Below, piece by piece: positions 2,574 to 43,628 of a stretch of 64,000 bases of DNA. A program made the translations under genes and the position numbers. Source of the DNA: Pestalotiopsis fici W106-1 (taxonomy: Eukaryota > Ascomycota > Sordariomycetes > Amphisphaeriales > Sporocadaceae); NCBI RefSeq assembly GCF_000516985.1, contig NW_006917095.1, positions 3,608,942 through 3,672,941 of the forward strand, read 5' to 3'. Numbering within the stretch: the first letter of the stretch is position 1; each line of letters starts with the position of its first letter. The notes under the pieces are model-generated. The model worked only from the letters and a program-made list of their open reading frames with translations. It ran no database searches and was not told the DNA's origin.

Positions 2574-3323
2574 GGATCATGGGCACTCTCCGCTTTGGAT
2601 CTTCCAGCTCCCGCATGGAGCCTTGGGAACAAGCAATGAAGAGATACAGAAGTTTCTGCCCCCTCGTGCACGCTTAATCATCAGTGGTCGGAAGCTGCCC
2701 CAGTCCGTCCCTGCCAAGCGAGCAGATGAGGCGGTGACCTTCGATTGACACATACTTCTCTGTGGTACGATGGAATATGGAAACACCTGTAGAGCGTTTC
2801 TGGCTTGATACATGCATTTTCGTGGCGTCAATCGGAAACCATACCCCTTGTCATTGAGCCTCATTTTGTAGAGGCTGTTGTAGATGTTATAATGAGAAAA
2901 GTTGTTTGAGTGGTCTAGTTGGGACAGGCCCTGCTATTGAAGAAAAAGGAATAAAAGAACTTGTCCTCGCAGACCATTGCAATGTGTGTCTCTTTTGACA
3001 AGTGATCAGGTCTTTTTTCTTTCTTGTAGACCGTTTCCTCGTCCTCGTCCTTGTCCTTCTTTGTAAATGTGTGTAAATTCTCCCATTCTCCAATATTGTA
3101 TATTTGCCGTCGGATCATTGGTAGGTCGGTGGGGCTACTACATGGCAGATAGCCGATTTGTCTGCGCACGCATCTTGGTACATATCTAATCTACATACCT
3201 ATCTGCCCAGTGCTGCTGCTGGTATATACATACATCCGTCGTGAATCCGCCCGGCGCCTTTTCACAATCAAGACGCGATTATTTCATTGCCTCCCCAGGC
3301 GTAGATACATATTCAAGGCATCA
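2574..3323. other. Intergenic: STU2 3' flank and amidohydrolase promoter
   Basis: About 750 bases lie between two plus-strand genes. The stretch must hold the STU2 3'UTR and the promoter and 5'UTR of the amidohydrolase. A pyrimidine-rich patch lies near 3008-3060. I see no conserved reading frame, RNA gene or clear TATA box. Confidence 0.7.
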
Positions 3324-4760
3324 ATGACGCTGCTACAGATTGCGTTGGCCGGTGCCAGACAGCCGCGAGATGAAATGCAGCCTGGGGGCTCGAGAATCGC
3401 GGCCGACAATACAGAAAGGTTAATCAGGCCCTGGAAGCTCCCGCCTCGCAAGTCTTATACTTTTGCCAACGCTCTCGTTGTTGACCCGGCTGCGGGGCGG
3501 ATCCGTGCCGATGCCTGGGTCAAGATCTCGGGCGGTCTGATTGAACATGTCCGATATGCGGACAAACCGCCGGCGCCCATCGATGAAGATGAAGACAGCA
3601 TTGTGATAGACTGCACAGGTTTGTACCTTTGCCCCGGCCTCATCGACGCCCACGTCCACTTGGCAGCGGTGCCGGGCTCTCCGTCGCTCGACGGAAGCAT
3701 GGGCGATGATGCCGCCGTAAGCCACTTTCGTCAGCCATTTGTGGCATTACAGAGCCTGAGGCGGGGCTTCACCACTCTGCGCGACTGTGGAGGTGCGACG
3801 CTGGCTCTCAAGGAGGCTATTGCCGACGATGTGTTTCCAGGGCCCCGGCTGTTCATTGCCAACCGTGCGCTGAGTCAGACGGGTGGGCACGGAGATAGGA
3901 GGGGACCGCACGATCACACGGGATCGCTATGCTGCGGCGGACAGCAGGCGGACGGGGGTCTCAGCGTCGTTGTCGACGGGGTGGACGAGTGTATCCGCGC
4001 TGCACGTGAGCAGCTTCGGACGGGCGCCGACTTCATCAAGATCATGGTAGGCGGCGGCGTCGCCTCGCCGAGCGACAAGCTCAGCAACACGCAGTTCACG
4101 TCAGCCGAGATCGCGGCCATTGTCGAGGTGGCCGAGTCGTACGGCACCTTTGTCACTGCTCATGCCTACACACCGCGGGCCATTCGTCACGCCGTCGCCA
4201 ATGGCGTCAAGGGCATTGAGCACGGCAATTTGATTGATGAGGAGACAGCGCGGCTCATGGCGGAGCGTGGGGCCTGGTTGACGCCGACGCTGGTCACGTA
4301 CGAGGCCATGGCCAAGACGGAAAAGTACAAGGGCTTTTTACCGCCCGAGAACGCAGCAAAGAATAAGGAAGTCTTGGAGAAGGGGCTCCGGAGCCTTGAG
4401 ATTGCCCAGGCTGCCGGTGTCAGGATGTGCTATGGCAGCGATCTTTTGGGTCCCTTGACAGCAGAACAGAGTGGCGAGTTCGCCATCCGTCAGAGGGCCC
4501 TAGATAATGCCGATGTGCTCAGGGCCGCAACGGTGAACCCGGCTCAGATGCTAGGTCAGGAGGCTTTCCTTGGCCAGATCAAGGAAGGTTTCGCGGCGGA
4601 CCTGGTCATATTGAATCATAACCCGCTGCAAAATGTCAGCATCCTTGGGAACCCTGAGAAGAGTCTGGTGTCTGTGATTAAGGATGGTAGAGTGTGGGAC
4701 AGTCATTGGAAGTCTCTGCCTGTGGACGTGTACCAGGCTTCTTCGGCTTGGATTCGTTGA
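3324..4760 (+). CDS. Metal-dependent amidohydrolase (imidazolonepropionase/Xaa-Pro dipeptidase-like)
   Basis: This is a single-exon protein of 478 aa from the chosen ATG. The HxH metal site is H110/H112 (codons at 3651). Further expected ligands can be seen: a Lys in FIKIMVGGG (position of the carboxylated lysine), His in VTAHAY, His in GIEHGN and Asp in YGSDLL. The order HxH-Lys-His-His-Asp is that of the binuclear amidohydrolase superfamily, which hydrolyses amide or cyclic amide bonds. Substrate cannot be read from sequence; fungal relatives include peptidase-like and mycotoxin-amide-hydrolysing enzymes. No signal peptide is seen, so it is probably cytosolic. The frame extends upstream to 3210, but that N-terminus does not look conserved. 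An in-frame ATG at 3375 with G at -3 is the main alternative start. Confidence 0.92.
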   Translation: MTLLQIALAGARQPRDEMQPGGSRIAADNTERLIRPWKLPPRKSYTFANALVVDPAAGRIRADAWVKISGGLIEHVRYADKPPAPIDEDEDSIVIDCTGLYLCPGLIDAHVHLAAVPGSPSLDGSMGDDAAVSHFRQPFVALQSLRRGFTTLRDCGGATLALKEAIADDVFPGPRLFIANRALSQTGGHGDRRGPHDHTGSLCCGGQQADGGLSVVVDGVDECIRAAREQLRTGADFIKIMVGGGVASPSDKLSNTQFTSAEIAAIVEVAESYGTFVTAHAYTPRAIRHAVANGVKGIEHGNLIDEETARLMAERGAWLTPTLVTYEAMAKTEKYKGFLPPENAAKNKEVLEKGLRSLEIAQAAGVRMCYGSDLLGPLTAEQSGEFAIRQRALDNADVLRAATVNPAQMLGQEAFLGQIKEGFAADLVILNHNPLQNVSILGNPEKSLVSVIKDGRVWDSHWKSLPVDVYQASSAWIR

Positions 4761-12323: not shown

Positions 12324-13061
12324 TCAAACCGTTCTACTACGGCTTGACTCCAGCTCTTTGCGGATTTCTACCAAACCTCGCCTCTGTCGACCATTCTCGT
12401 CGAAATTCTCGGCCCTCAACCAAGCCTCTAGCGCACCCTTGATCGTCGGCCACTCATTGTCCACAATGGAGAACCAAGCCGTATCGCGGTTACGGCCCTT
12501 GACAATGAAATGCTTTCTAAAGATGCCCTCAAACACGAAGCCGTACCGTAGCGCTGCCCGTCGGCTTTTGGCATTCAGGCTGTCGCACTTCCACTCGAGC
12601 CGCCGATTGCCCAAGGCCTCAAAACAGTGCCGCATGGCCAAAAAGAGTGCCTCTGTCGCCACCGTGGTACGTTGCAGCGCCGCCGAAAATGTCACGTTGC
12701 CAATTTCGATTCCTCGATTCTTCTCATCCATGCGCATCAGGCTCAGGTAGCCCACGGGACTGCCAGCAGCAAGTCCGGGCAAGTCCACCTGGGTCATGAC
12801 CGTAAAGAACAGCGGGTCCTTTGAGACAACGAGGTTTTCAATTTGCCTGGTAAACGCTTCCTCGCCGGTAAAAGGTCCGGCGGCCATGTACGACCACGTC
12901 TCCACGGGCGAGTCTCGGCACAGGCACTGATACAGTGCTGATGCGTGTCTTGTAGCGACGGGTTCGAGTCTCGTATACTCTCCATCAATTGCCAAATGCT
13001 CTGGACTCTTGGCTGGTCCGGCATTGTCCAGCACCTCGCCCAGTGGTACACTAGTAGACAT
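12324..13061 (-). CDS. GNAT-family N-acetyltransferase (RimJ/RimL-like)
   Basis: A single exon of 245 aa. The fold is recognised by GYLSLMRMDEKNRGIEIGNV (beta strands 2-4), the acetyl-CoA loop region LQRTTVATEALFLAM, and the late segments WKCDSLNAKSRRAALRYGF and GIFRKH. The N-x-x-S-R-x-A-x-x-x-G-F pattern is typical of RimJ/RimL-type acetyltransferases. The glycines of the classic Q/R-x-x-G-x-G/A loop are replaced by Thr, as I recall for this fungal subgroup. Substrate is unknown. The ATG at 13061 lies in an AACATG context with A at -3. An in-frame ATG at 13097 would add 12 acidic residues and is less likely. Confidence 0.9.
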   Translation of the reverse strand: MSTSVPLGEVLDNAGPAKSPEHLAIDGEYTRLEPVATRHASALYQCLCRDSPVETWSYMAAGPFTGEEAFTRQIENLVVSKDPLFFTVMTQVDLPGLAAGSPVGYLSLMRMDEKNRGIEIGNVTFSAALQRTTVATEALFLAMRHCFEALGNRRLEWKCDSLNAKSRRAALRYGFVFEGIFRKHFIVKGRNRDTAWFSIVDNEWPTIKGALEAWLRAENFDENGRQRRGLVEIRKELESSRSRTV

Positions 13062-13808
13062 GTTGATGTTTTCTTCTTCTTCTCTGGAAAGAACCAATAA
13101 TGCTGTTGGATGAGGTGGAGGAGGAGAGATGTGTAATTAGCCAGTAGCCAGTTCGTCAGCTCCCTTTGCTATTGCCCGGGCAATGTAGTTGGGCAGTGCC
13201 TGAATATCTTGTTGTATAGGTGTATGTATATATAGCTATGTTTTATGCGTGCTACTTAGGTGCTCTAGACTCTGGTGACTAACCTCCTACATAAGTGAAC
13301 ATGACCGAGTCGGAACTTCCGATATTAAGACCGCCCCGGTATCGGAGAATGACAAGGGATATACCGTCCGTCTACTTGCCTCAAGGTCATAATATGCGAT
13401 CAAAAGTGGCACCTCGGAACCCATTCATGTTTGCTAGCAACTCACAGATTCAAATCACGTATGCGGTCACGATAACAAAGTCGCAAAGAAACAACAGCTT
13501 CATCAAGACAGACCTTCCGAGTACTATACACGCAGTACAACCGCCTTGGGCGGCAATCCTAGAAACACATTTATTATACATAAATCCCATAACGGTGCCT
13601 GCGACCTCCGCGCCATACCAAGAAGCAACGTCTTTCTAGACGCGGTATTTCCTCCATATCATTTCATGCTCAGCAGCGAATCTCTCTATCCCTGTCCTGC
13701 CAGACATTCTTCGTGCAAACAAGTCAAATGGTAACGAGGCTGAAAATGCCTCAAACCCTCCCCGCCACGTATCACTAGGTCGGGGAAACATCAAATAGAA
13801 CAAGTGTC
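13062..13808. other. Acetyltransferase promoter / SAPS gene 3' flank
   Basis: About 750 bases between minus-strand genes. A 114-codon plus-strand frame at 13295-13639 has no recognisable features and biased composition. I treat it as chance. Confidence 0.6.
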
Positions 13809-16800
13809 CTAGACGACAACCTCCTCATCGTCAGGGTCCTCGATACTCGACCGTGCCTTGGCCTCATGGGTGCTTTTAATCTTTCCCCCATCATCACTGC
13901 TGATCTCCTCGTGCTCCGGTTTCTCAGAGTCCCCCTCTTTTGATTTCTCCTTTTCTTTGTCCTTGGATCCGAAACCTTGACTACTGAACGGCCATAGACT
14001 TGTGAAAGCTGAACTTTTCTGGTTCTGATTGGGAGGATGAACCGGCAGGGGTTTCACAATGACATTGCTCTTCTCATTGTGGGCTTCTTCTTCAGGCATG
14101 GCAAAATCGCCGAATTCCTCGTCTTCTTCGTCGCCTTGGTCGTCATTGTCCGAGTCAGAATCGTCACGCCCATCGCCAAACTTTTCTTGCCGGTTCCGCG
14201 AGAGCGCACTTCGCCACCAGCTACCGCGTCCATGAGAGTTCCAGGCCGAGTTCTCGTCTCCACCTAGACCATCATCGCTATCGTCGTCAACATCTTCGGC
14301 ATCGTCCTCAAATGGATTCCGTAGAATGCTGTCAGGCTCTCTTGTGAGTTGCAAATCACCATCTTCGTCCTCATCGTCGCCACCCTCGATATGAGCAGAC
14401 TGAGCAGAAGCACCCGCACTATTCTTCTGGTGCATAGCTAGGCGGGCCGCCAATTGCAAACGGGCGCGAGACGGCGGAACATTCAACGGCGGCGGGGGCG
14501 GCGGGGGAGGCGGGATTGAGGGTGGATCCAGGGACGATTGATCGTTCAAAGAGCCCGTATAGGAGCGGAACTATTGGCTGTCAGACCATTGGCCAAAACA
14601 CATGTAGGCTTTCAAAACAGCCACAAGCAACAAGTAGCCGCCACGCGGACAAGCAAGAGTCATTCCACCTGGTAGCACGCAAGAATAATTAAACAATATA
14701 AGGGGGAGGGGCACGTACCCGCGAAGGTTGGGACGATGAACTAGTGACTAATAAAGACTTACCTCATGAACTGCGTCCTCTTCGTTCTCTTCCGAATCTT
14801 CGTCCTCGTCGCTAGAGTTGCGATCAAAGTCCGAGCCTGATCCAGCAATGCCACCGCCAATCGCGAAGGCGCCGCCGTAGCTACTCGCACTTCCATTGTC
14901 GTCTGCTCCGCCATTAAGACCTGCTTCAGAAAGAGCATTCGAACCCTGGGTACTACCAAGGCCGATCTGTCCAAGGGCCATACCAAGATTGTTTCCGGCC
15001 ATTGCCGCACGATTACTCATGGCAACCTCGGGCCTGACACCGCCGAGAATGGCATTATCTCTCTCGCGCGTCTCTGCTAATGCGCCTTCGACATAATTGA
15101 TCCAATCTTGACTCATGACTCGGTCGAGCACCAGCTCGGACAAGAGCTCCGGAGGGTTGCGCTCCGTGAACTTGACTACCTCCTCGGCAATAAGGGTAAG
15201 ATGACCCATGTAGCCCATGCGGGTCTTGTTCTTGGCTTGAGACTCCTCGCTGCGGTTTTGTCCATCTATAATGGCATTCGTAATATCGGCGGCCTCGAAT
15301 AGAGAAATCGCTAGAGTCGGGTTGAACCCGCGATCAATAGGGCCGTTGAAGACTTGTTGCACAATATCATAGACTACATTGTGAAGGAAATTGTTCCATG
15401 GGTACTTGAAGAAAAACGACTGGAGCAGAGGGTAAAGGAATAAAGTATTAGCAGGATATTAGTGCTGGGGGTTAGACGTCGACTCACCAATATCGTCGGG
15501 ACAACCTTATGTTCGACAAATTGCATCTTGAGATAGTCACCCACAACTGGCTCAGTCGATTCATTGATAGGGCGCTGCTGAGTAGGTTGCTCAGCATCGT
15601 GTCCCACCACAATGGAGCCGTCGCCGGAGTCGGTGGCAGGTGTCGCTTCCAACTCAATAGCTCCTGGTTTTGCGCCAGTGACTGTGTGGGTAGATTCAGA
15701 GTCGCCTTCGAGCCCTTTGGTTGGAATTTCAACCTTGTTGCTCGCTGTCAGATCAGAAATGGTCGACTCTAGCTCTGCCTGCAGCTTATCACCGGCCAAT
15801 TGGCTTTCTGCTGCGGCCACCTCTGCGGTGTTCTCTGATGAAGGGGCACTGATGCTTGTAGCTTCCACACCCTCTTGTCCAACTGGCGCGATATCCAATG
15901 CTGCTGTGGCAGAGTCTTCCGAAGATGTCGTTTCATTACTCTCGGTCTGGCCGACCTGAGCAGCGGCAGGTTCGGCAGCAACCTTCTTAGGGGACAGTGG
16001 CGCAACAACCATGTCGGGATTCTCAATATCTGGCAAGTCATTGACCTTAGCGTCCTGGACGTGCAGTCTCGGTGAGCTGAGTGGTTCATCGACAAAATCA
16101 TCATCATCATCCTTGTCCAAGAATGAAGAGATGGGTCCTGATGGCATTTCGTCCTCGGCCTTGACAAATTCGTGGGATGTGTCCTCTGTCATATCGCCGG
16201 AGGGTGTGACCTCCTCAAAGCCGTCGTCGTCAGAGGCATTGGTGATCTCTAGACGTCGGCTGTCATCTGGCGAGGAGTGACGACCACGCATGGTCAGATC
16301 CTCGGCGGAGGACTGTGCCTCTTCGGTGCGGATAGGCACGAGCTTGCCCTCAGCTCGCAGTCTCCGCCTTTCCTGGTCGCGCAGAGCGATGACCTGCTCC
16401 GAACCAACTTCGTTAAGCAGAGCCATGTTGCTGCAGTGCAGCAACTCGGCCATCAACTCACAGGTTTTAAAGCGATCAAAACCCAAGGGTTCGATGTCAT
16501 CGTCAAAGGTTGAGGCAATACGCTGTTTCTGTGCATTGGTATTCATGATAAGATTCATGAAATCAGGGACTCGATCGGCGAAGCGGCGGAGGAGCGTTCC
16601 TAGGTAGATGGGGTCCCGAGAAGAGGGAGCCGCGTTGTTATCGGGGCCGACATCCGGATCGTAGTCAGAGTTGTTTTTTCGTATAACCTCGATAATGATG
16701 CCAACGCCCACTGTCAAGGGGTTGCCACCGCCGAGCATATAACCGATCAGCTGCTCGACACAGGGTTTCGAGACGAGCTGACGGGTGAGCTCGTTAGGTC

Positions 16801-17709
16801 CGATGCAGGCTTGCTCATTCTGTGAGGCGTTGGCCGATACGGTAATGATAGCCTTCATGAAGTCGCCAGCCGAAGTCTGGGTTGCCCAACTGTGTTCAGG
16901 TCCGAGGAAGGATAGCAACGTGGGCATCACATCTTTAGTATACAACCACTAGAAAATATAGTTTTTTTGGTTAATGCCTGGTGACGGTACTTGGAGGGGG
17001 GCGCACAATCTGTGCCCTGGAGATCATGACATACCTCGACTATACCCTGGCCCGAATCGGTTCTCTCGAGACTGATGATTTTGAGCAGTAGATCCATGAT
17101 CATGGGACAATCAACATGGCGCAGCATATCTGGAATAGCCCTATCAAGCGACTTGAGAAGGTCGAGCATCTCCTCAGTCTTCTTATCAAACAAGGACTCG
17201 TTGACCTTTGTAAAGTAGCTTGCTTGCAGAGGATCGAGAGGGGCAGGCAGTTTCAGAAAATTCCAAAAGTCGCGAAGCAACGAAGTGCTTTCCATGAGTG
17301 CCTCATAGATGCTCCAGTTATCTGAAGACAGCACCTCGGCGGCAACGTAGGCATAGCGGTTGCGCTTCTTCTCGCCCTCGTCTTCATCGTGCTCACCGTC
17401 GGTGGTGGCGCCGGATGAGGCACGCGGGCGGCCAAAGGGCAGAACTAATTTGCCCTTCTTCTTATCTTCGTCTCCCTCCTTGTCCTCATCAGGGTTCTCG
17501 ACAGGTTCGAGCTTGGGTGCGACGACATATTCGAGAAGCTTTTGCAGAACCTTATCCTCGCGCAGGTACTCGATGAGCTTCGTATTGTGCTGCTTAAGCT
17601 CTTGTATCAAATCGCTCTCGTCTAGGAGATCCTCTAGAGAGAAGTCTGGCTTCTCGAGGATTGTGTCAATGGTCGAGATGTTGGCGTAACCGCCGAATCT
17701 CCAGAACAT
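13809..17709 (-). CDS. ekc1: SAPS-domain protein, Sit4/PP6 phosphatase-associated (Ekc1-like)
   Basis: Four exons: 17709-17035, 16948-15488, 15419-14763, 14570-13809. They give 1,184 aa. The N-terminus (MFWRFGGYANISTIDTIL) and the helical repeats that follow are the SAPS signature, continuing through FFFKYPWNNFLHNVVYDIVQ across the exon 2/3 junction. The middle (about nt 15500-16330) is a long acidic, Ser/Thr-rich low-complexity insert. The C-terminal exon is acidic with a proline run, then basic. Family members bind Sit4/PP6-type phosphatase catalytic subunits and govern the G1/S transition, kinetochore function and nutrient signalling. All three introns are phase 0 (86, 68 and 192 nt) with good donors (GTATGT, GTGAGT, GTAAGT). 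The frame is intact and well conserved by eye. Confidence 0.96.
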
Positions 17710-20700
17710 GTTGACGGGTGTTCTGGTCTGCGCCTGAGTTCAGAGCGCGATGGGCCGGACATGCGAGAAGTGTTTAGCGGTCCAGAGGTCTTTGCAAATC
17801 CAGCATGCAAAAATGCTGCTATCGGCGCCTGATCCTTCGGTCAATGCAGGGTGGGCGCGGACCTTGTTCAGCGACCGGGGCCAAAGGTCGCACGGGTCAA
17901 TAGGCTGTAGGGTCGATATGCCTGACGGGACTCTACAAGGCGTGGGAAAAGGTCTGCATCGAGACAGGTCGGAGAATACGTGGATGATGGATAGGGTGAT
18001 TGAGACGGGTGTGTGTGTGTGTGTGTGTGTGTGCAATGTGTGAGCACACAGCTATCGTCGACGGCCGTTTGGTCGTCGCGGGTGGGGGGCTGGGTTGGTT
18101 TAGTCAGTCAGGGTCCGCAGTCTGTACCTAATGTAGAGTGGTCTAGATTAAGGCAGACCGGGCACTGGGCACATGTGGTAGGCTCCAGCGAGTGACCGGG
18201 CGATCTGAGCTGCGGAGAAGGGCGCCGCCACAAGATGGAAATTCTCCTGCCACCTATCTGCCTCCTTCTAGTAATCGAACGTGATGATGGAGTAGGTAGG
18301 TAGGCATTGGACGGAACAGCGTCTGATGAAACGTACCTGCACGTCTGATTGTGATTGAGTAGGTAGATTTCAAAATGGCTGCCAGAGCACACACCAATTT
18401 ACCTAATGGGCGAGTGATTCGCTGCTTACAACGTCCAGCGGAGCATAAATAAGCGATGCAAATAGAGCCCGAGGGAATATGTAGTGATGATTGGAAATAG
18501 CGTAGGTACACTGTAGATAGGCCTACCTCGTTTAAGCTCAAGGGTGCATAGGCACCTACCAGGTAGCTGTATTTGTATCAGATGGTTTTGGATGGTGATT
18601 GCTTTGCCACAAGGTGCCTGGCGCGCTAGGGCCTGAATGTACCTCAAGCTGGAATTTCCTTTGCTTTTATCTCAATACTATTTTCCGCATCTAGAAAGCC
18701 AGAGGGCAATACCGAAAAAAGAAGAGAGATAGAGAGAGAGCAAATAAGGAAGGAAAAATTAGGAAAAAAAAGGAAGGGCTATGGCTACCTCTCAGTACCT
18801 AGGCAGGTAAATATGCATGGATGCATTAAGTGAGATGTTGGAGGAAGCGGATGCTGAGTGACATGGACCTGCGAGCTGACCTGGAAAGGTTGTGGCTCGT
18901 TGGCAACAGGCCGTGGGTAGGTCAGCTTGGTCATTCTTTTTTCAACAGAATCCGATTGATCGATCCATGACAGGATTTGCCCGGGTAGGTCGCGCCCTTG
19001 GTGCCTTAATACAGGACCAGGACTATTGCTTCCTTGACGAGCTTGGGAACTGCTGCCAACAGCTTGGTTGACGTGTAGATATGAAATACGCACATACCTG
19101 TATTAACAACCTTGTCATACGTACCGTATCAACGCTTGTAATGATGAAGCCTTCCATCTCACAGTAACGTTTGGCTCTTCTCACGTTTTCGTAGGTCCTC
19201 AGAGTTTCAACAGAATCTTGAATTTATTCGGTATCTTCCTTTCCCATCGCTCGACGACTGCCTGGCAAGACTAGGACTTATTACCCAATCTAAAGTGTAT
19301 GTCCTCGACCTAAAGGGCGGCCAGCCTCTGCTAGGATTTCCTTCCTTTATATGATTTGCTCTCTATATGGTACCTGGTCAAAAGTCATAAGCACTGAGTG
19401 CATGAGCCGCCGCTGGATCATAAAACTTGGAATTTGGACGCGTTAATAAGTCAAGTTGATGTGAAAGGATGTTATAGCATTTTGCACCTACTATAAATAT
19501 CTATAGTAGGAAGGTACAGAGTACGCAACCAGTCCTATAACTTTACTACTGGCCGACTCCATACAATGAATCAAAACCACAGTGGCCAAGTAGGAGAGTG
19601 CGCGGGCCATACGTAGGCGTGTCAAGCCTGTTCAAAACTACTACCTACACACACAGTCATAGACGTACCTAGGTACACAGTACAGGTAAAGGCAGATCTG
19701 CAAATCTTTATTCCTAGCGGTTTCGGAGACTTTATCATCGAGTTCCAATGAGATTCTCCGAGATACGTAGTTCAAGAGGGGAGAACCCGCTTGCTGTTTC
19801 AGCGATAGGGCAACGAAAGAATAGGGGCGAGAAAAGCAAAAATCGCAGCAGCAACATGATGATGGCACCTGCGATTGGCGGACTTCAGTAGCAATGCTGG
19901 GGCCATGATGGAGACAAGCCCTGACATGCCAAAGGGCTCAAAGAGTCAAGGCCCAAGGGGCCTCTGGCTCTGGCTTCCTGGCGAGCTCCTGGCAAGCGTC
20001 TCGGCACAGAACGCTGCCAAGCAACCAAGCCACGTGAGGACGGGGCCTCCAAATGTTTGACGCTTCACGCGATCTGCATAAGCCCCACCACCACTGAACT
20101 AGGTTATGTAGTATTGCGTACCGTCTTCCATGTAGGTACTAAGGTAAAAGGTATGTAAAGAACATTGAATAGGACTGATGACTTACTGACTGACTGACTG
20201 ATAGATCAAAATATCGGCAGAAGGATCCCGGTCAGCCATTATGTCGCAATTGGATGTAACTCGAACTATTACAACAAAAGTATTCTCTCTCTTTTTTTTA
20301 TATATATCTCTCTTTCTCAATATTAGTTACATATATCCTGGCCTTACATCACTCTCGACGCACTTGGATTAAACAGTCAATAAGTGGTCCAAGCGACACC
20401 ATATACTCGCCGGCTCATATTAACGTATCCAGACTTGGAAACATCGGAGGAAATACCACTCTAACCATTCATGCTTGGCAGTTGATGTCGGCGCCTACTC
20501 GAAGGCCGTCCCATCTGCTTCTGCTCGCCAAGCAGACACTTGGAAGAGTGTCGGTACGGTTATATCGATGGGCCAACCTCTATGTGAGAGTTCGTCATGA
20601 GTCACACATGTATTCAAAAGATGAATATGTTTCCCCGACCAATGAATCCCTTAGGACTTTGCTGGCATATTTCATGTTCATCCTTGGTCGTTGATTGTGG

Positions 20701-31823: not shown

Positions 31824-34800
31824 ATGTCTTCAACATATCTAGTATTGCCCCCAATCGATACCTCATTGGGCTTGTTCGATTCCGATGCGGTGCTGTCCGG
31901 CTCGAGGCGGAGACCTCTGCCTCGTATCGACACTGCCATTCGACCACTGAGTGAAGAGATAACCGAAGATGTCATCGCTTCAGCAGCTGAAGCGGTAGCA
32001 GAGGCCCTCGGGGTGTCTCTCAACGATATACCGGAAACTTGTGTGACAGCATCCCGCCCAGAACCAGAATCGAGGAGGCCGAGCTCCTTTTATCCACCAC
32101 CACCCGAGAAAACATGGTCCACGCCAGCGCAGGCGACGTCGATAGAAAGGCGGTTGAGCATTGCCGTTGCCGAGACCCTGGGAATTGACATTGGCACAGT
32201 ACCACGGGACGAGTCCTTTGTAGACCTCGGTGGGGACAAGCGCGCTGCGATTGCTCTGCGGGCAAAATGCTTAAAGGCAGGTCTGTCTGTCCAGACCAAG
32301 GATATACTGGGCTCCAAGACTATCGCCGAGCTCGAGACTCATGTCACGCCCTTCAGCCCGTCGCCGCTAACTAGTAGAACTGCCGACCTGCCACCAACCG
32401 GCCTAGTAAGCCCCCTTCAATTAAGCTCGCCGTTGGCCGCCGTTAGTTCCGCGACCAAGGCCGCAGCCACGCGGCGCCGCTCCGCGTCGAGTGCCGAGGC
32501 CCAGACGCCTATCGTACCCAAAGCGCATCTCAAACCCAAATCGTCCAAGCGCTATCACAATCAGGTTGAGCAATGCCTCTCGCTCAATGGGGAAGTTGCA
32601 AAGGCTTCAGTGCTCAAGCCGAAGGCTGGATTGTTCGAAGGTCAAGTCACAGCCTTTTTGACATTGTCGAGTTGCGTGGTTGAGGGACCAAACACGGGTG
32701 ATATCAAGCTGCTCAATGCTTATTACACCATTCCTCTGCCCTCAATACGGAAAGCGGTCGAGGCAAAGGTGCCGCCAAACGTGGTACCAAAGGTGTGGAT
32801 AGTTCTCGAGCAAATGCCACTGGATGAGAATGGCAAAATCCAGCGACGAAAGCTGCAGACGTGGATTCAGAACGCAAACGAGGATCTCTACCAGAAAATC
32901 ATGTCCATCGACTCGCAGGACCGTTCCGGGCCCCCAGAGAGCGACAATGAGAAAAAGCTCCAGAAGGCGGTAGGCAAGGTCTTGAATCTGGACATTGCAG
33001 ATGTTGGCATGAACTTGTCATTTCAGAGCTTGGGGGGAGACCAAACCACAGCGATGCAGCTAGTGGTGCGATGCAAGTCACAAGGTCTCTCATTCAAGGT
33101 TGAAGATATCCTCCAAGATATGCCTCTGATACAGCTGGCTGCCATGGCGACACCCAGCGAGATCTTTACCGACAAGATCAACGAAGACACCACTGAAGAA
33201 TTTGATTTGGCCCCGATGCAGCGTTTATACTTTCACACTGCCATGGGCCAGAGAGCGCCCCTCAGGGCCGACAAGAAGAATTCGTACCGCTTCAACCAAA
33301 GCACGTTGCTAAAATTTAGACGGCCGACAGCGGTCGAAGACGTCCGTGCAGCTGTCGAGGCCGTCGTCGGTCACCATTCGATGCTCAGGACGCGGTTCCG
33401 AGCGAGACTCGGGTCGTGGTCTCAACACACTCTCACAGATATTCCCTCTTCGTATTATTTTGGCCATCACACGGTAGGCACAAACACTGAGATTGAGACC
33501 ATTATCCAACAAGCACACGGTAGCATCGATATCGAAAACGGACCTGTATTTGCAGCCCATCATTTCCACACTCATGATGGCCATCAGCTTCTATATCTGG
33601 TCGCCCATCACCTGGTCACCGACCTGAAGTCGTGGCGAGTCATCATCGATGACTTGCAGGAGCTCATGATGAACGGAAGCCTGGTCTCGGGTCGTCGCAT
33701 TACGTTTGCCGAGTGGAATGCCCATCAGCGAAGCCAGGTGGAAAGTGCCGAGGCGGCGACAAAGCTCCCCTTCGCCACGAGTGCTGCCGATTTGGACTAT
33801 TGGGGAGTCAATGATCTGAGCAACAAGTACGGCAACACGGCATCGCTCGGGTTCACTTTGGAGCGGGAAGTCACCTCGGCCTTGGATGCTAGCAACCGCG
33901 CATTCCGCACCGACTCGTCGGATCTTTTCATGGCCGCTCTGCTCCTCTCCTTCTCGCAGACTTTCCGCGACAGGCCAACTCCGTCGATATGGAACCAAGA
34001 ACATGAGCGCATCGTACTTGACACCGAAATCGATCTGTCCGAGACAGTTGGTTGGTTCACAGCCCTCTGCCCTGTTGGACTTCAGGTCACGCCGACGGAT
34101 GAAATACCCGATGTGCTTGCCCGCGTAAAAGACGCGCGCCGCTCGATAGCTGGGCGAGGCGTCCCCTTTTTCGCAGCCAATATGCTCAATGCCGAATCCG
34201 CCGACTGTTTTGTAAAATCCAGGTGCCCCATGGAAATCATCTTCACTTATGCGGGCTCCGTGGAGAGCCTCGATAGTCAAAAGAACCTTTTGGAGCAACT
34301 TCCGGTGACGGGGTCATTGGCTTCCAGTACGTCAGATATTGGGCATAATGTCGGAAGAATTTCATTGTTCGAGGTATCTGCAGCTGTCGATCATGGAGAG
34401 GCCAAATTCAAGCTACTTTACAACAAGTGGTCCCGACACGAAGATCTCATCAAGGCGTGGATGCGCAACTTTGAGACACTCGTGCGCGAGACGGTCTTCC
34501 GACTCCAGTCTCAGCCTCCAGAGCTCTCCATGGCCGACATTCCCTTGATGGACGTGACCTATGATAATCTCGCCAAACTCAACCGCGAAATCCTTCCCAA
34601 CTTGGGAATCGACATTTTAAACATTGAGAACATGTATCCCGTCACAGCAAATCAACAGGATCTGCTTATCAGTGAGCCTCTGAACCCGGGCAGCTCGCGT
34701 TCCCAGACTGTGTATGAGCTCAATACTCATGGTAAATTTGTGGACATTGGCCTTCTCTGTGCAGCCTGGCAGCAGGTCGTACAAAAGCACCCTGCACTCC

Positions 34801-37800
34801 GAACTGTCTTCATGGAAAGCATATCTCGGTTCAGCCTCTTTGACCAAATCATCCTACGGCGACACTCCCCCAATATGCTGTTCATCGAGAACGACCGACC
34901 TGACACTGCATTGTATTCAATGGAGAAGTTGACGCCCATCAACCTCATGAAAGGCACACCATGGCACCGCCTAGTCGTCTGCCAGGCACCAGGCAAGACA
35001 CTTCTCATGCTGGAAGTCAGTCAAGCCTTGTGCGATGTAAGCCAATATCACCCAAATGTGGACAGCGCTCTCTGTACTAACGAAGCGAATCTCTAGGCCT
35101 CGAGCATCACTATCCTCTTCAGTGAGCTTCAAGAGGTATACTTTGGTCACGCTCTGCCCAACACAACGGATGTACATTACCCAGAGTATCTGCAGTGTCT
35201 TAAAACCACGCCCGTCAGCACGGAATTCTGGCGAGAGCTGCTCCAAGGCATCCAAGAATGCCATTTCCCTAGCCTCATTTCCAAGTCGCTGGATACTAGA
35301 GCATATGAGCACACCTTTGTGGACTTGGGGGTCGCCCACGCAGATCTCGAAGCATTTGCTGAGAAATACAAGCTAGATATAGCCGCCGTTCTGAGGGTTG
35401 CATGGGCACTCGTCCTGCGAGCATATGTGGGCTCGGATTCGGCGTGCTTTGGCTACCGTACGTCTGGCCGCGACATACCTGTCGATAACCTCTCAGACGC
35501 TGTTGGCTGCTTTTCAACGGAAATGATCTGTCGCCTAGACGTGCACTCGTCGCAGTTCATAGCACAACTACTCCTCGACTCGGCAGAGATTCATCAAGAG
35601 GCCCTCCACCATCAGCATGTGTCGGTGAATAGCATCCACCACGCCCTTGAAACAAAAGGCCGCCGCTTGTTCAACACTTGCCTATCATTTGGGTACGAGT
35701 ATATTGCCGAGGAGCCTCCTGTTGGTGTCAAATTCCGGCACGTCCGGAATATGCAAGCCTCCGAGTACGACGTCAATATAGACGTCGTGTTCAAGAATGG
35801 CACCGTGGTCATTGATCTTGGACACCGCATCCTGACGTCAGAGCAAGCAAGTCATGTAGGCCACGCATTTGGGCGGGCAATTTCAGCCGTCATGGAGATT
35901 ACCGGTGGACAAGTCAAGGAAGTTGACCTTTTCAGCGATCATGACCACAGGCAGATCCTCGTATGGAACGGCCAACCAAAGATCTCGCCTCCAAAGGAAC
36001 ACGTGCATGAGCTCATTGCCAAGAATGCCATCGAGCACCCCGACATCCAGGCCATATGTGCTTGGGACGGGGGGTTCTCTTACGCCGAGCTCGACAAGAT
36101 GTCAATGATACTAGCCGGGGCGCTGAGCCAAGCTGGTGTCAAGCACCAGACACCCGTGCCCATCATCATGGACAAGTCCCGCTGGGTGGTTCCGGCAATG
36201 TTGGCTGTGCTGAACATTGGGGCCTGCATCGTGCCAGTCGATACGTCTCTGCCATCAATATTTTCCTGGGTCATCAAAAGCGTTGGCGCAAAAATCACGC
36301 TTGCATCCGAGAGCGTCAGGAAGCACCTCAAAGATGTCAACTGTGATATTGTCTTCATTAACGAAGAAACCATTGCATCTTTACCAGAAGAGCCAACCTT
36401 GGTGACCTCGGCGAGAACTGATGATGACGATGTTGCCTGCATTCTGTTCAACTCTGATGTGGTACAAACACGCCGAGGCATCACTTACAGCCACTCGGCC
36501 CTGGCAACGGCTTGTGTTGGGCAGGGGCCGGCCCTGAGAATCAATCCATCCAGTCGAGTTATGCACTACTCTTCACATAGTAGCGACATAGCCTTGGCTG
36601 AGATCTTCACGACCTTGACTAATGGCGCCTGCATATGCATTGGAAAATCTGTCAAAGCAAGCGATTTTGCGATTGCCGCCCAAAGGATGAATGTCAACTG
36701 GACATACCTGACTCCGACGCTGTCTCGCAGGCTGTCACCCGAGAGCATGCCTGACATGGCAATTGTGTGCTTTCGAACGCAACAGCTAGACGACGACGTG
36801 TACAGCCAATGGGCCGGCAAGGCCAAGATCATTCTGGCTTACGGTTCTGCCGAAGCCTGTGTACTGGGTCTTTCTGCTTCCGAAGTGCGCGATCCTTTCG
36901 CCGTCCGTGGAATTGGCAGCCCCTACTGTGGTAACTTCTGGGTGGTGAACCCCTCGGATAGCAACAAACTGATGCCTATTGGTGCTGTCGGCGAACTCGT
37001 CATCGCTGCGCCCACGTTGGCCGTAGGCCGAGACCTCGACGCCGGGCCAATTCAGCTGAACAGCAATAAGAAGAAGGCCAGCACTGCTCGCGATGGACGC
37101 TCGAACCGCCCAGGACGCTTACTGAAGACTGGCCACTACGTTCGCTATGTCGAACATGGCCAGCTTGAGCTGGTTTCGGCCCAAGCAGACAACGTCGACC
37201 TCGGAAGTGGCATTGTGAACACAGCCGAGATTGAACGCAAACTGCGCCGATGTCTTGGTCGCAGCATCGACGTGGCAGTTACCAAGATAGCCTTCAACTA
37301 CACTGACAGCGACTCAGCCCCAATAATTGCTGCCTTTGTAGAGCTTGACGACGAGCTGTACCATGGGGAGGACCTATCAAGACTCAAACCCCAGACAAAA
37401 GAGCGGCTGTACTTGGCCAAGCAAATGGCAGGTCTTTCTCTCAGGGGTGCCCTTCCGGACACATTGGTACCCGTGCGGCAGCTTCCACTGACACCCGCGT
37501 ACGAGGTCAGCCATCGGGAGCTTCAGAAGATGATCAGGGGCCTCTCCAAGACGCAACTGCTGGGCCTGGCTCAGGTACCCAACCCACAGGAGGTCAACTC
37601 AGCGGGCCTTGAGCCCCTGCCGCTGACAGCGACAGAGGAAAGGATGCGCTCGCTCTGGCAAGAGGTGCTTGGCTTGAACAACAATAGCCCCATTCGGCCA
37701 ACCGACGGCTTCATGAGCTTGGGAGGTGACCTTGACCTTGCTCATAACCTTGTGGTTGCATGCAGAGAACAGGACGTGGCCATATCCATCCTGGACGTGG

Positions 37801-40038
37801 TCCGCAACATGCCACTGGACGAGCTCTGCCGCGGTATCTCCATGCCCGACTCCCCCATCTACCACGCAGAACAGAGCAGGTACATGCAGCCAAGTCCTTC
37901 GAACGCGTTTGTGGACGACGCCATTGTCCCGCAGATTGGCGACCGCGATAGTATCGAGGATATTGCCGAAGCTTCAGCAACTCAGACCATGTTCTTGGAG
38001 GGTATGCTCAGCAGCCGGCCGGGAAATGTCAACTATTTTGTCATCAACGTCAATGGGCCGCTCGACTGGGGCAAGCTTGAGAATGCCTGCTACCTCTTGA
38101 CCATGGCCCACCCAATCCTCCGAACGGCCTTTGTCTCCCACAACCGCCAGCTATTCCAAACCGTCATTCGAACATACCATCCCGAATTCCAGCGATATCA
38201 GTCCAACAGCTGGAGACTCAGCGGGCTGGCAGCAAAGGTAATCAAGAGAGACCAAATAATGCCAGTCGACTTTCGCCAGCCGGCCACGAAGTTCTGGTAC
38301 ATTGATGCCTTGAAGCAATCTGTCTTGGTCATGAGGCTTTCTCGCGCGCAATACAATAATCTCACTTTGCCCACACTCATCTCGGATCTTTCCAGGTTTT
38401 ACGAGCAAGGCGATCTACCAACTCCCCGCTCAGGGTTCTGTGATGTTGTCAGAGCAACACAGCGCTCCTCCCTCAACAGCGCCCTAGACTATTGGAGGGT
38501 CTTGCTGGAAGGGTCCTCGATGACTGAAGTCATCAGCAAGTCGGGGCCAGATGTGCCAACGTCCAAGGCAGACTCAAAGACCTTGCAACAAGTCATTCCG
38601 ACAGGCTCTCTGAACAACTTGGGCATCCCCTTTGAGACAATCCTTAAGGGTGCCTGGTCAATTGTACTGTCAAACCTCTCGGGCTCTGAAGACGTCGTCT
38701 TTGGCGAGTCGAGATCAGGAACATTTCCTGGCCTGGCTGACGCTGTAGGCCCTCTTGGTGAGTCTCTGCTTATTTTCTTTTCCTACTTCCCCCCTTTAAT
38801 TTTCGACGATATTCCATCTGTCCGTCCGAGTGACTAATTGATTCGGTTAGGCAACATTATTCCAGTACGCACAACCATCCCGTCAGTTCCGACTTCGCCC
38901 CTTGATTATCTGAGGAACGTTCAAGTAGGTGGTCTTGACTCCCCCAATGACTTGAAGTATGCACATGGCTTATCGATTGACATAGAATCAACACATCACG
39001 AGCACGAGCATAGAGCATGAAAACATGCAGTGGTCAGACATTGTGAAGAAATGCACCAAATGGCCCGTTTGGGAGAAGTTCTCCACCGTGGTTGAACATG
39101 AGAACCACGGCGATCGCGACGACTTGATGAGCAACTTCAACATTGGGAGTGTGGCGTGCAGAATGAATTGCATCGAGTCCAACCACCAGAACACGGATAT
39201 ATTCGTACGGTCCACCAGGTCGGGATCGACGTATGCCAACATATCGCTCACTTTTTCGGAGAAGAAAATGCACCCCTTCTTTGTGCAAGAGGTTCTATCT
39301 ATGCTCTGCGCAACAATTTCTCTTCTCACGTCGGCTTTCATTATGGAGCCGATCTCGCTCAGAGGCCTCCATGACAATGGCAGCACTCCACGAATCCCGC
39401 TATCGGCACCGAAACGCGATGTGCAGTTTGCAGCGCCCGTGATTTCTGTCTCACCGGACCATGCGGGCGCGATACACGCAGTCATTTCATCTGGCTGGAA
39501 CGCCATCCTCGGAGCCCAGGGGGTGGCAGAGGACGTGCGCTCGGTTCCATTCTACCAATTTACATCATCCCTGGTTCCAGCAGCAGAGCTGGCTCGGTAC
39601 TACACGGACAGTATGCCACGGCTGAATTTGCCCGGCCTGGCGCATGCAAATTTTGCGCTCGAGGACATATTAGAAAACCCGACCATGATGAAGCAGTACG
39701 AGATGATAATCTCTAGGCAGCAAGTTCCACCGCAGTTGAGACGGAGCCAAAGTTTTGTGCACACGGTCCGGCGGCGGCTGACCGTGACGGGCGGACCTGG
39801 GCCTGCCTCGCCTGGCGCCAGCTCTTCGCCCATCAGGAAGACCAGAGGCGGCAGTGCCGGCAGCTCCATGGAATCAATGACTACGGGCAGTAGTCAGAGC
39901 GACGAGGAACACTATGATGAGGTACCAGAAATGGTGGCCCAGCCTCAGAGGAGGAAAACTGTGGCGAAACCGTTCGAGGTCAAAAAGCGATCTTCTGTAT
40001 TGTTCGGAAAGATGAAGCTATCTTCGACTGGTGCTTAA
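31824..40038 (+). CDS. NRPS-derived megaprotein with degenerate catalytic motifs (pseudo-NRPS)
   Basis: Exons 31824-35036, 35097-38757, 38851-38924 and 39016-40038 give 2,656 aa. Domain order: carrier-like (106-176); C-terminal adenylation subdomain only (240-355, keeps NGK at 336-338); carrier-like (375-445); epimerization type (455-900, HHLVTDL with H595/H596/D600); condensation (930-1350); adenylation (1360-1895); carrier-like (1915-1985); condensation (2025-2450); carrier-like (2455-2530); Ser/basic tail. The phosphopantetheine Ser of GGDS is Lys139, Gln407, Leu1950 and, in the last and weakest domain, Leu2502. Condensation motifs HHxxxDG read SQALCDA and SRAQYNN. In the adenylation domain A3 lacks its glycines, TGD is TGH, and the A10 Lys is missing (TPAYEVSHREL). 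By family knowledge such domains cannot load or join amino acids. Yet the frame has no stop, so the protein seems retained for another role. The start ATG has G at -3. Confidence 0.95.
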
Positions 40039-40854: not shown

Positions 40855-40954
40855 NNNNNNNNNNNNNNNNNNNNNNNNNNNNNNNNNNNNNNNNNNNNNN
40901 NNNNNNNNNNNNNNNNNNNNNNNNNNNNNNNNNNNNNNNNNNNNNNNNNNNNNN
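40855..40954. other. Assembly gap (100 N)
   Basis: Exactly 100 N, the usual placeholder for a gap of unknown length. The true distance between the NRPS-type gene and the transporter, and any gene in the gap, cannot be known from this window. Frames spanning the N run are artefacts. Confidence 0.99.
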
Positions 40955-41423: not shown

Positions 41424-43628
41424 ATGTCTGCCACTCACGATGCGGCGGGCGTCGACAAGGCCGAGGCAATCGGCCTCGAGCACAAGGCTAGTGTGGCTAA
41501 CGGGACCGCCACTGCGCTGCAACAGCAGTTTGCAAGTTCGGCACCAGAGTATCATCACGATATGACCAAGAGGCTCCTACGAAAGGTGGATTTCCATCTT
41601 CTGCCTTTTCTGATTCTCATGTACGTCAAGGGCAGAGAGAGATTGTCGCATCATTTTTCAAAGCGTGCCACGGTCTCGCGACGAGATACTTTGTCTGCGC
41701 TGTTTGTCTGGTGTCCTTAGAGATTTTAGACGACAAGATATCCGCACATATTCTAGAAAGCTGGTACATGGTACTGATATATACGATTATAGGTATCTAT
41801 TAAACTTCTTGGATCGAAAGTGAGCCCATTCCAGATGCCCATATGCGTCGCCACATGTGTGCGACACTATGAAGATTGTGCTAAATCAGATATTGTGGTC
41901 AGCAATCTGTCACAAGCAAGACTTGGCACATTGGAAGCTGAACTCGGTACGCCATCAAACCAACAAAGATGGGCAACAGGCTTAGACGTAATGTTTACAC
42001 GCTCTAGGTATGACCGGCACCGACTTTAACCTGGCGACCAGTATTCTCTTCGTTGGCTATCTATTGATGCAACTGCCATCAAATCTCATCATTACGCGGG
42101 TGCGGCCATCCTTATACTTAGGAAGCGTCATGACCATCTGGTAAGTCTACATGGTCCAGCCAACGTGTCGCTCCTCCCACGGTGATGAAGATCGCTCACA
42201 AAACCATGGGGAAAACACAGGGGAACTATTTCGGCATCACAAGCCGCGACGCACTCATTTGGTGCTCTCATTGCCTGTCGCTTCTTTCTTGGATTCGCTG
42301 AGGCGCCCTTCTTTCCTGGCGCCATCTTCCTCATGTCTTCCTGGTATACTCGCGCCGAACTGGCACATCGGATCGCCTGGTTCTATGCAGGCTCTTCGCT
42401 AGCCAACGCTTTTGGTGGCCTCCTCGGAGCCGGCGTATTGGGGAATTTGAGCGGAGCCCACGGGATCTCTGGATGGTAAACCAAAGACTCACCTTGGTCA
42501 CACGCGACCCTTGATGCTTCTGAAAATGCTGATGCGTTCTGACAGGAGGTGGCTCTTCATCATAGAGGGCGTCATCACAATCGGCGTGGCCATTACAGCG
42601 GCCTTTATCCTGCCCGACTATCCGGCAACAACAAAGTGGCTCTCGGAAGAGGAAAAGGCATATGCGCAATGGCGACTCGTTGATGATGTCGGAGAGGCCG
42701 ACGAGGGTGGCGCGGCGTCTGTCAAGGAGGGTGTCATGCTGGCTCTCAAGGACCCACGACTATATCTCTTCACCCTTCTCCAGCACATCAGCTTGCTCTC
42801 ACAGTCCTTTCAGTACTTTTTCCCGACAATTGTCAAGACACTCGGGTATGGAAACATTGAGACACTCTTGATCACGGCGCCGGTGTGGATTGGGACTTTT
42901 CTCGTGTCGCTCGTGGTGACGTATACGTCTGGAAAGTATCACGACAGAAGCATACATATTATATGCCTAATGTTCATATCGGTCATTGGTAACATTATTG
43001 TTGTCTCGTCGCTCAATACTGGTAAGTTGAGTCCCATTGCCTGCTGCGTCCGACAAACGCGGGAGAAGCTAAAGCAACCCTTATGACAGCGGCACGCTTT
43101 TTTGCAATGTTTCTCATGCCAATGGGCGCAGTCTCGGCCTATCAAATCATCGTGGCCTGGGTATCCAACAGCTTTCCCCGGCCCCTGGTCAAAAGGTCGG
43201 CTTGCATATCGATTGCCAATATGATTGGAAATTGTGCCAACATCTATGGATCGTACAGTAAGAGGAATATCTCACGCAATCCCTTGTTATGCATATATCA
43301 CCCAAACAACACCTAACCAAATATCTTCTACTTCTGTAGTGTATCCTTCCTCTGATGGTCCAAGATACCTTGCTGGTGGTAGCGCAACGGCTGCAGTTGC
43401 CCTTGTTGTGAGTGCTGGCTGGTCCCTGAAGGCAACTGACCTCGTTTGATCTCACAAAACTCGCAGGTGGCCATCATGGCTTTTGGTGTGCGCCTCGTAC
43501 TACAGCGAGATAACAAGAAGCTCGCTGCTCGTGAGCAGGCTGCGCGGGAAGCGGAGGAAGCAGAGGAAGCAGGGCCAAGGGAGGCGGCCTTTGAGAGCAG
43601 GGTCAATGGGTTTAGATATGTCCTTTAG
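41424..43628 (+). CDS. MFS transporter, allantoate permease (Dal5) type
   Basis: Nine exons: 41424-41620, 41793-41819, 41903-41946, 42008-42140, 42221-42475, 42546-43021, 43090-43257, 43340-43407, 43467-43628. They give 509 aa. The join across two tiny exons (27 and 44 nt) restores FLDRNNLSQARLGTLEAELG, the TM1/loop motif typical of the anion:cation symporter (Dal5/Tna1) family. Later motifs include RFFLGFAEAPFFPGAIF and an internal TKWLSEEE before TM7. About twelve hydrophobic segments are expected at the plasma membrane. Substrates of the family are small organic anions such as allantoate, ureidosuccinate or nicotinate. The C-terminus is an Ala/Glu-rich helix. All phases agree, so the gene looks intact despite its many introns. 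Start ATG has A at -3. Confidence 0.93.

Follow-up and report, generated by a model that had tools for sequence, protein, structure and literature searches.

A putative ancient pseudoenzyme derived from a nearly complete non-ribosomal peptide synthetase in Sordariomycetes

What keeps the gene of a large non-ribosomal peptide synthetase (NRPS) in frame once almost every residue needed for its chemistry has gone? The question is raised by a gene at 31824..40038 of a 64,000-nucleotide stretch of the Pestalotiopsis fici W106-1 genome (contig NW_006917095.1, positions 3,608,942 to 3,672,941 of the forward strand), hereinafter the window. A first-pass annotation, made from the letters of this stretch, had taken the gene to be retained by selection in a non-catalytic capacity, as a scaffold, binding or regulatory protein, without choosing among these. 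The first part of that proposal is supported by at least 170 relatives, a gene tree, a contrast in site rates, conservative substitutions and confident fold models, and we hold with very high confidence that the product is a non-catalytic but selected protein. On the evidence of sequence comparison it is an ancient pseudoenzyme and not a pseudogene, because its losses are family-wide, its former serine sites evolve fast while its folds evolve slowly, and its substitutions depart from the neutral expectation.

Domain order and catalytic residues

The gene model has four exons (31824-35036, 35097-38757, 38851-38924 and 38986-40038), which give a coding sequence of 2,666 codons plus a stop, where 2,656 codons had previously been counted. 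The earlier description of an uninterrupted frame with clean introns is borne out: there are no internal stops and all three introns are of the GT-AG type. Pfam recognizes three Condensation, one AMP-binding and two PP-binding stretches in the protein, and alignment together with profiles gives the order T1-(A remnant)-T2-E-C1-A-T3-C2-T4, with T, A, E and C denoting carrier, adenylation, epimerization and condensation domains, respectively. The features are as follows.

31824..40038, + strand: whole gene, pseudo-NRPS, 4 exons, 2,666 amino acids (gene model, Pfam, orthologues)
32145..32363, + strand: carrier T1, residues ~108-180, Lys139 at the Ser position, codon 32238 (Pfam, alignment, rates)
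32556..32927, + strand: remnant of the C-terminal subdomain of a lost A domain, residues ~245-368 (profile match)
32937..33164, + strand: carrier T2, residues ~372-447, Gln407 at the Ser position, codon 33042 (alignment; helical in the T2-E model)
33186..34493, + strand: E domain, residues ~455-890, HHxxxDxxSW intact (His595, His596, Asp600), Gln725 for the catalytic Glu (alignment to solved E domains, model)
34587..35918, + strand: condensation domain C1, residues ~922-1345, spanning intron 1, Gln1067 for His (Pfam, alignment, rates)
35037..35096, + strand: intron 1, GT-AG, 60 bp (gene model; P0001 and P0003 proteins continue across the junction)
35931..37553, + strand: A domain, residues ~1350-1890, A3 loop, A7 Asp and A10 Lys lost, pocket slow-evolving (alignment, rates, model)
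37596..37850, + strand: carrier T3, residues ~1905-1989, Leu1950 at the Ser position, codon 37731 (alignment, rates)
37929..39402, + strand: terminal condensation-like domain C2, residues ~2016-2455, spanning introns 2 and 3, Arg2154 for His (alignment, profiles, PDB match)
38758..38850, + strand: intron 2, GT-AG, 93 bp (gene model; P0001 and P0003 proteins continue across the junction)
38925..38985, + strand: intron 3, GT-AG, 61 bp (gene model; P0001 and P0003 proteins continue across the junction)
39469..39693, + strand: degenerate terminal carrier-like T4, residues ~2478-2552, Leu2512 at the Ser position, codon 39571 (alignment, rates, profiles)

The Ser positions of the four carriers are occupied by Lys, Gln, Leu and Leu (residues 139, 407, 1950 and 2512) at exactly the codons for which the first-pass annotation had reported them, and alignment of the carriers upholds these assignments, with Ser present in 63 of 70 control carriers from 16 other NRPSs (a profile-based count; the named ones are fungal). 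In the fungus's own genome all seven other carriers within the examined pieces of its NRPS loci have Ser. The histidines are likewise missing from the motifs of C1 and C2 (VSQALCDAS and LSRAQYNNL), as had been noticed, but a third condensation-type domain, E, had been overlooked; its motif, AHHLVTDLKSW, is an intact version of HHxxxDxxSW, while alignment to solved E domains places Gln725 at the E4 Glu (EGHGRE). Alignment also confirms the reported loss of the A3 glycines, the Asp of TGD and the A10 Lys: the A domain has LFNSDVVQTRRG at A3, TGH at A7 and Glu instead of Lys at A10. A domains of 14 non-family NRPSs conserve the A7 Asp in 38/38, the SG[ST][ST]G loop in 37/38 and the A10 Lys in 34 of 35 domains with a residue aligned at that site, and E-like domains of other NRPSs have the catalytic Glu in 18/19. 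We infer that the protein would be unable to make a peptide.

One loss probably stands outside this decay. Seven control carriers lack Ser, and five of these have LGGDI; one of the five belongs to P0177, and each of the other four is the final carrier of a Pes1-type synthetase. Five Pes1-type synthetases were sampled; the last carrier has LGGDI in four, and no carrier was found near the end of the fifth. Hence, the state of T4 is probably ancestral and inherited.

Sequencing or annotation error at the key codons has a negligible probability as the source of these residues. We found nothing in its favor, and the earlier worry about such error is answered by the two closest orthologues, P0001 and P0002, which carry the identical Lys, Gln, Leu and Leu and thereby make it unlikely. 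Moreover, the introns are regular, and exon 2 has a single full match in the 51.7 Mb assembly, the runner-up being only 27% identical. A run of exactly 100 N at 40855-40954, just 3′ of the gene and outside its coding region, marks an assembly gap.

The folds themselves seem well preserved. AlphaFold2 models the A domain with a predicted local distance difference test (pLDDT) score of 86.4 and a predicted template modeling (pTM) score of 0.88, and the T2-E unit with 87.1 and 0.78, respectively. The former model matches the A domain of gramicidin synthetase 1 (1AMU) and the latter matches solved PCP-E (carrier-epimerization) structures, while C2 finds the terminal condensation domain of TqaA in the PDB. 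A profile of the A remnant finds the C-terminal region of A domains from Pes1-type synthetases and from other NRPSs, and the remnant retains an NGK motif.

Family-wide losses and constraint

A homologue search from the window protein returned 2,171 matches, among the best 120 of which 119 were taken as family; a second search, from the Lomentospora member, contributed the best 120 of 1,797 matches, and the family counts rest on at least 170 relatives besides the window protein from both searches. The 119 proteins are 93-37% identical to the query, and 112 of them have one alignment over at least 84% of it. Among the matches listed, the closest relatives with a named organism are from Seiridium (80% identity) and Truncatella (79%), and every organism-named member belongs, as far as its class is known, to Sordariomycetes. 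The six species looked up belong to Xylariomycetidae, Hypocreomycetidae, Sordariomycetidae and Lulworthiomycetidae, and to the orders Amphisphaeriales, Diaporthales, Hypocreales, Microascales, Coniochaetales and Lulworthiales; the members from Neurospora, Colletotrichum, Verticillium, Pyricularia and Xylaria presumably represent further orders. Outside Sordariomycetes, within a limited set of candidates, the Leotiomycetes, Dothideomycetes and lichen fungi among the matches listed have only Pes1-type or other non-family NRPSs. A 94% match to the Scedosporium gene has been reported in an assembly named for the dothideomycete Aureobasidium pullulans (PMC6737921); that assembly may be mislabelled.

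A gene tree pruned to 29 labelled members, with a midpoint root, groups Hypocreales, Glomerellales and Microascales, unites the Xylariomycetidae with Zalerion beside them, and joins Sordariales, Coniochaetales, Magnaporthales and Diaporthales. It thus appears to track the species tree broadly, much as vertical descent predicts, and suggests an ancient family of pseudo-NRPSs inherited mostly vertically across four subclasses of Sordariomycetes. Coniochaeta sp. 2T2.1 and Fusarium commune each have two family proteins among the matches listed, so extra copies or duplicate assemblies occur. Three relatives, P0147, P0149 and P0150, are longer (3,446-3,546 amino acids); in P0150, from Cytospora (Diaporthales), the main match to the window protein stops at residue 2822 and is followed by a C-terminal extension of about 600 residues for which no Pfam match was reported.

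Catalytic residues were counted on 171 members (the window protein and 170 relatives), excluding gaps. Ser persists in 5/158 at T1, 24/141 at T2, 3/170 at T3 and 0/164 at T4, and the condensation His in 12/159 at C1, all 12 being Colletotrichum proteins, and 0/167 at C2. The catalytic Glu of E is found in 0/167, with Gln there in 148. The A7 Asp survives in 2/170 and is replaced by His in 123/170; the A10 Lys is kept in 98/168, and the [ST]SG[ST]TG loop is absent in all 171. Of the 9 canonical residues scored, which do not include the A10 Lys, any one member retains 3 at most. The sharing of losses across species, which the first-pass annotation had listed as support, is family-wide for most residues, but the E His pair is mostly kept, and the T2 Ser, the C1 His and the A10 Lys are present in some members. 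At the former T2 Ser site (residue 407 in the window protein) Glu or Asp occurs in 86/141 (69 Glu, 17 Asp), a preference that may resemble a phosphate mimic or may be due to chance.

The residues that do survive raise the alternative of a partial enzyme, in which E or C1 acts in trans on the carriers of another synthetase or the T2 Ser is used in some lineages. It draws on the second E His (145/166), the T2 serines and the Colletotrichum C1 histidines, and is improbable given that the E4 Glu and the C2 His are missing from every member scored and that the second E His is itself gone in 21/166, including Monosporascus, Coniochaeta, Sodiomyces, Fusarium and Xylaria-type members. For the same absence of the Glu and loss of the second His we dropped the reading of E as a retained catalytic domain.

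Site rates, computed on 86 non-redundant members, separate the former catalytic sites from the folds that bear them. The former Ser sites are fast in T1 (94th rate percentile), T2 (85th) and T3 (97.5th) and intermediate in T4 (38th). At or below the 3rd percentile lie His595 and Asp600 of E and Asp1071 of C1, and below the 9th lie Gly1947 and Gly1948 of T3 and Tyr1653, Gly1654 and Arg1754 of the A domain, while the Gly pairs of T1 and T2 fall at the 20th-35th. T1 overall and both tails of the protein evolve faster than the remainder, and the slowest 15-residue windows fall within the cores of the A, C and E folds.

A decaying pseudogene in which the first stop codon has not yet arisen would explain the loss of most catalytic residues, and a relative in Scedosporium apiospermum, SAPIO_CDS8684, is indeed annotated as a pseudogene in a draft genome (PMC6737921). 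This explanation is, nevertheless, very improbable, as much the same dead state recurs throughout the family, the rate contrast is strong, and neutral simulation predicts stops and far more radical substitutions than are observed. Substitutions between the window protein and five relatives (94-71% identical) have BLOSUM62 scores below zero in 25-31% of cases; the same pairs simulated neutrally average 48-50% and never drop below 35% for any pair in 100 runs. Simulated divergence to the nearest relative produces a mean of 6.9 stops and at least one in 100/100 runs, and about 7 to 32 are expected over the five relatives, as against 0 in the window gene. This stop test is biased, the relatives being database proteins among which intact genes are favored; the substitution test is unbiased.

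The adenylation pocket and a possible ligand

Most of the substrate pocket of the surviving A domain has been spared. Asp1568, Tyr1608, Phe1630 and Leu1661 are nearly invariant: the 86 members have Asp in 86, Tyr in 85, Phe in 85, Leu in 82 and Pro in 80, and Asp is found in 170/170 members with a letter there. The window protein has Val at residue 1660 (pocket position 330), where 160/170 members have Pro, a substitution that may set its pocket slightly apart from those of most relatives. Mean rate percentiles within the A domain are 19 for the nine pocket positions and 68 for both A3 and A8 among the 86 members, with a similar 20, 67 and 70 among 18 representatives. The corresponding values for pocket, A3 and A8 are 56, 12 and 20 when 32 active A domains from other NRPSs are taken as the control; a fairer one, the orthologous active A domain (~4229) of 119 Pes1-type proteins, gives 18, 12 and 16. 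Thus, in what we consider a new pattern, the pocket of a dead A domain appears as conserved as that of its active orthologue, while A3 and A8 have relaxed. The pocket is also slower than the A domain as a whole (P = 0.0004).

Because the pocket is conserved while A3 and A8 are relaxed, we posit that the protein is a binding or sensing scaffold. Sequence shows an NRPS-type assembly line that has lost its carrier serines, its condensation and epimerization residues and the ATP-handling parts of its A domain while its folds stayed constrained. Under the proposed mechanism, the A domain would still hold a ligand that it cannot activate, presumably one with an amino group, because the Asp that anchors the α-amino group is invariant. 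The remaining domains would form a large folded scaffold around this ligand-holding domain, and the whole would act as a ligand-responsive binding or scaffold protein. Such a vertically inherited pseudo-NRPS is, overall, the explanation that we find fairly probable. Its component claims carry their own weights: that the surviving A domain binds a ligand is, from the residue and rate patterns, an even call, and we only tentatively suggest that a single conversion, in an ancestor of the class, made a whole NRPS into a non-catalytic receptor for an amino acid or amine. In such a receptor the A domain would retain its recognition pocket without ATP chemistry, and the signal would be relayed or scaffolded by the inert C, E and carrier folds.

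Several observations weigh against ligand binding or against the wider proposal. Compared with its immediate neighbors, the pocket shows no significant slowing (P = 0.077), and in a second active orthologous Pes1 A domain the pocket lies only at the 39th percentile. The A7 site (residue 1751) is still slow, at the 21st percentile, with His in place of Asp. The A10 Lys contacts the carboxylate, and it is kept in only those 98/168 members and lost in the window protein. The fixed, bulky Tyr and Phe could themselves fill the pocket. At the T2 Ser site, 30/171 members have no letter, mainly Hypocreales, Monosporascus and some Annulohypoxylon-type proteins, and therefore the T2 carrier may have been lost in whole lineages. 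A further point comes from Neurospora: 126 knockouts of secondary-metabolite-cluster genes have been phenotyped, few being named with phenotypes in the passages of PMC9239088 consulted, so that the probable family member in this fungus, NCU04531, if among the 126, would have had no phenotype worth naming there.

These points feed the main rival, which ranks next after ligand binding: a pure structural scaffold or protein-interaction platform, in which the fixed Tyr and Phe occupy the A pocket and no small ligand takes part. The concentration of the slowest windows in the A, C and E cores, the lack of a significant difference between the pocket and its neighbors, the bulky residues fixed at two pocket positions and the poor conservation of the A10 Lys all suit it. 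We regard it as possible but on the unlikely side, since an Asp invariant in 170/170 members is hard to explain in a plugged pocket, and since A3 and A8 have relaxed in a domain whose pocket is as conserved as that of an active orthologue. The open choice that the first-pass annotation left between scaffold, binding and regulatory roles is therefore narrowed: the pocket analysis leans toward binding, with the neighbor control not significant.

The protein would be a pseudoenzyme fashioned from an NRPS almost in its entirety, and its A domain offers a natural example of substrate recognition seemingly uncoupled from ATP chemistry. We know of no described pseudoenzyme of such derivation. None turned up in the literature searched, nor did a paper recognizing a conserved pseudo-NRPS family, though most subscription journals lay outside the search. 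With members in well-studied genera, common laboratory ones included (Neurospora, Colletotrichum and Fusarium), the role is open to knockout tests. Among the names given to members are ‘non-ribosomal peptide synthetase’, ‘fumiquinazoline F synthetase’ and ‘Nonribosomal peptide synthetase 12’, so a dead protein may be counted among the peptide synthetases of such genomes. Fusarium NRPS10-13 were considered as family names and set aside: in a published comparison NRPS10 groups with ChNPS10, and NRPS11-13 group with ChNPS12, and there was no match.

Descent, known relatives and gene neighborhood

The nearest working synthetases appear to be those called Pes1 or NPS4, which we take to be names for one type. 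They share with the window protein the local order T-E-C-A-T-C and, in four of the five sampled, the Ser-less last carrier, and residues 247-2331 of the window protein align to 38-2124 of P0109, whose longest relatives are Pes1-type giants, in one BLAST alignment. The differences are of size and state: these synthetases are mostly ~6,700-7,950 amino acids long as opposed to 2,666, and those checked have the carrier Ser, E Glu and A motifs intact, unlike the window protein. By profile, E, C1 and A are closest to modules of giant Pes1-type synthetases (A by a small margin); C2 matches P0185 best, followed by terminal condensation domains of Pes1, and the best match of T4, a weak one, is P0172. 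In trees the family forms one clade with support 1.0 in each of four domains. Its placement is weaker: E falls with Pes1 and two others (0.66), C1 pairs with a domain of P0176 (0.78) within a larger group to which Pes1 belongs (0.72), and A and C2 do not resolve. Taken together, we infer that the family would derive from a Pes1/NPS4-like synthetase; an origin inside Pes1 was considered and not adopted, the trees lending it only weak support.

The fungus's own genome also has a giant multi-module NRPS region (G000:C1:3432581-3459508), with pieces 35-41% identical to Pes1-type proteins, so that one genome seems to hold both the dead protein and a Pes1-like enzyme; the first stretch of this region contains three TGA codons in a six-frame search. 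ChNPS4, taken here as Pes1-type, affects conidial surface hydrophobicity, and a role in the conidial surface or wall is reported for it and its Alternaria homologue within the EAS subfamily (PMC2823734).

Two described genes would fall within the family. From its published description, SAPIO_CDS8684 very probably does: it has 2,708 amino acids, the order E-C-A-C and no recognized carrier, and is 45-49% identical to uncharacterized NRPSs of Colletotrichum and Verticillium (PMC6737921). In sections 11 and 16 of that paper it is handled as one unassigned NRPS, without a family or selection analysis. The second is NCU04531 of Neurospora crassa, probably the orthologue of P0090/P0108 by elimination. 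One of the EAS NRPSs of this fungus we take to be NPS6-like. They number two in Table 1 of PMC2823734. NCU04531 is listed as the NRPS core gene of secondary-metabolite cluster 18 and is treated as an ordinary NRPS (PMC9239088). Its named neighbors in the cluster include two genes for nuclear migration or the spindle and one for a laccase, and expression of the cluster genes is coordinated during conidiation and sexual development (PMC9239088).

NRPS domains kept without chemistry have precedents. The degenerate A domain of ChNPS6 homologues is one (PMC2823734). It and its counterparts differ from the present case in being one dead domain in a working enzyme, whereas nearly every domain of the window protein is dead. 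The same comparison applies to X domains, which are inactive domains within working NRPSs.

Among the 20 of 42 long reading frames of the window scanned against Pfam, there is no further NRPS or polyketide synthase. A SAPS (SIT4 phosphatase-associated) gene lies upstream on the minus strand (14751-17739), and frames elsewhere include an amidohydrolase (3153-4757), an acetyltransferase (12327-13136) and hydrolases. Downstream, between 42 and 63 kb, are pieces of MFS, FMO-like, amino-acid permease, FAD-binding and OPT proteins, of which the FMO, FAD and MFS pieces could also belong to a metabolite cluster. A stretch of MFS transporter is found in the downstream frame 42451-43083. The orthologue cluster P0002 is named as a glycerophosphoinositol permease, a hint that in a relative two gene models have been fused or the neighborhood is conserved.

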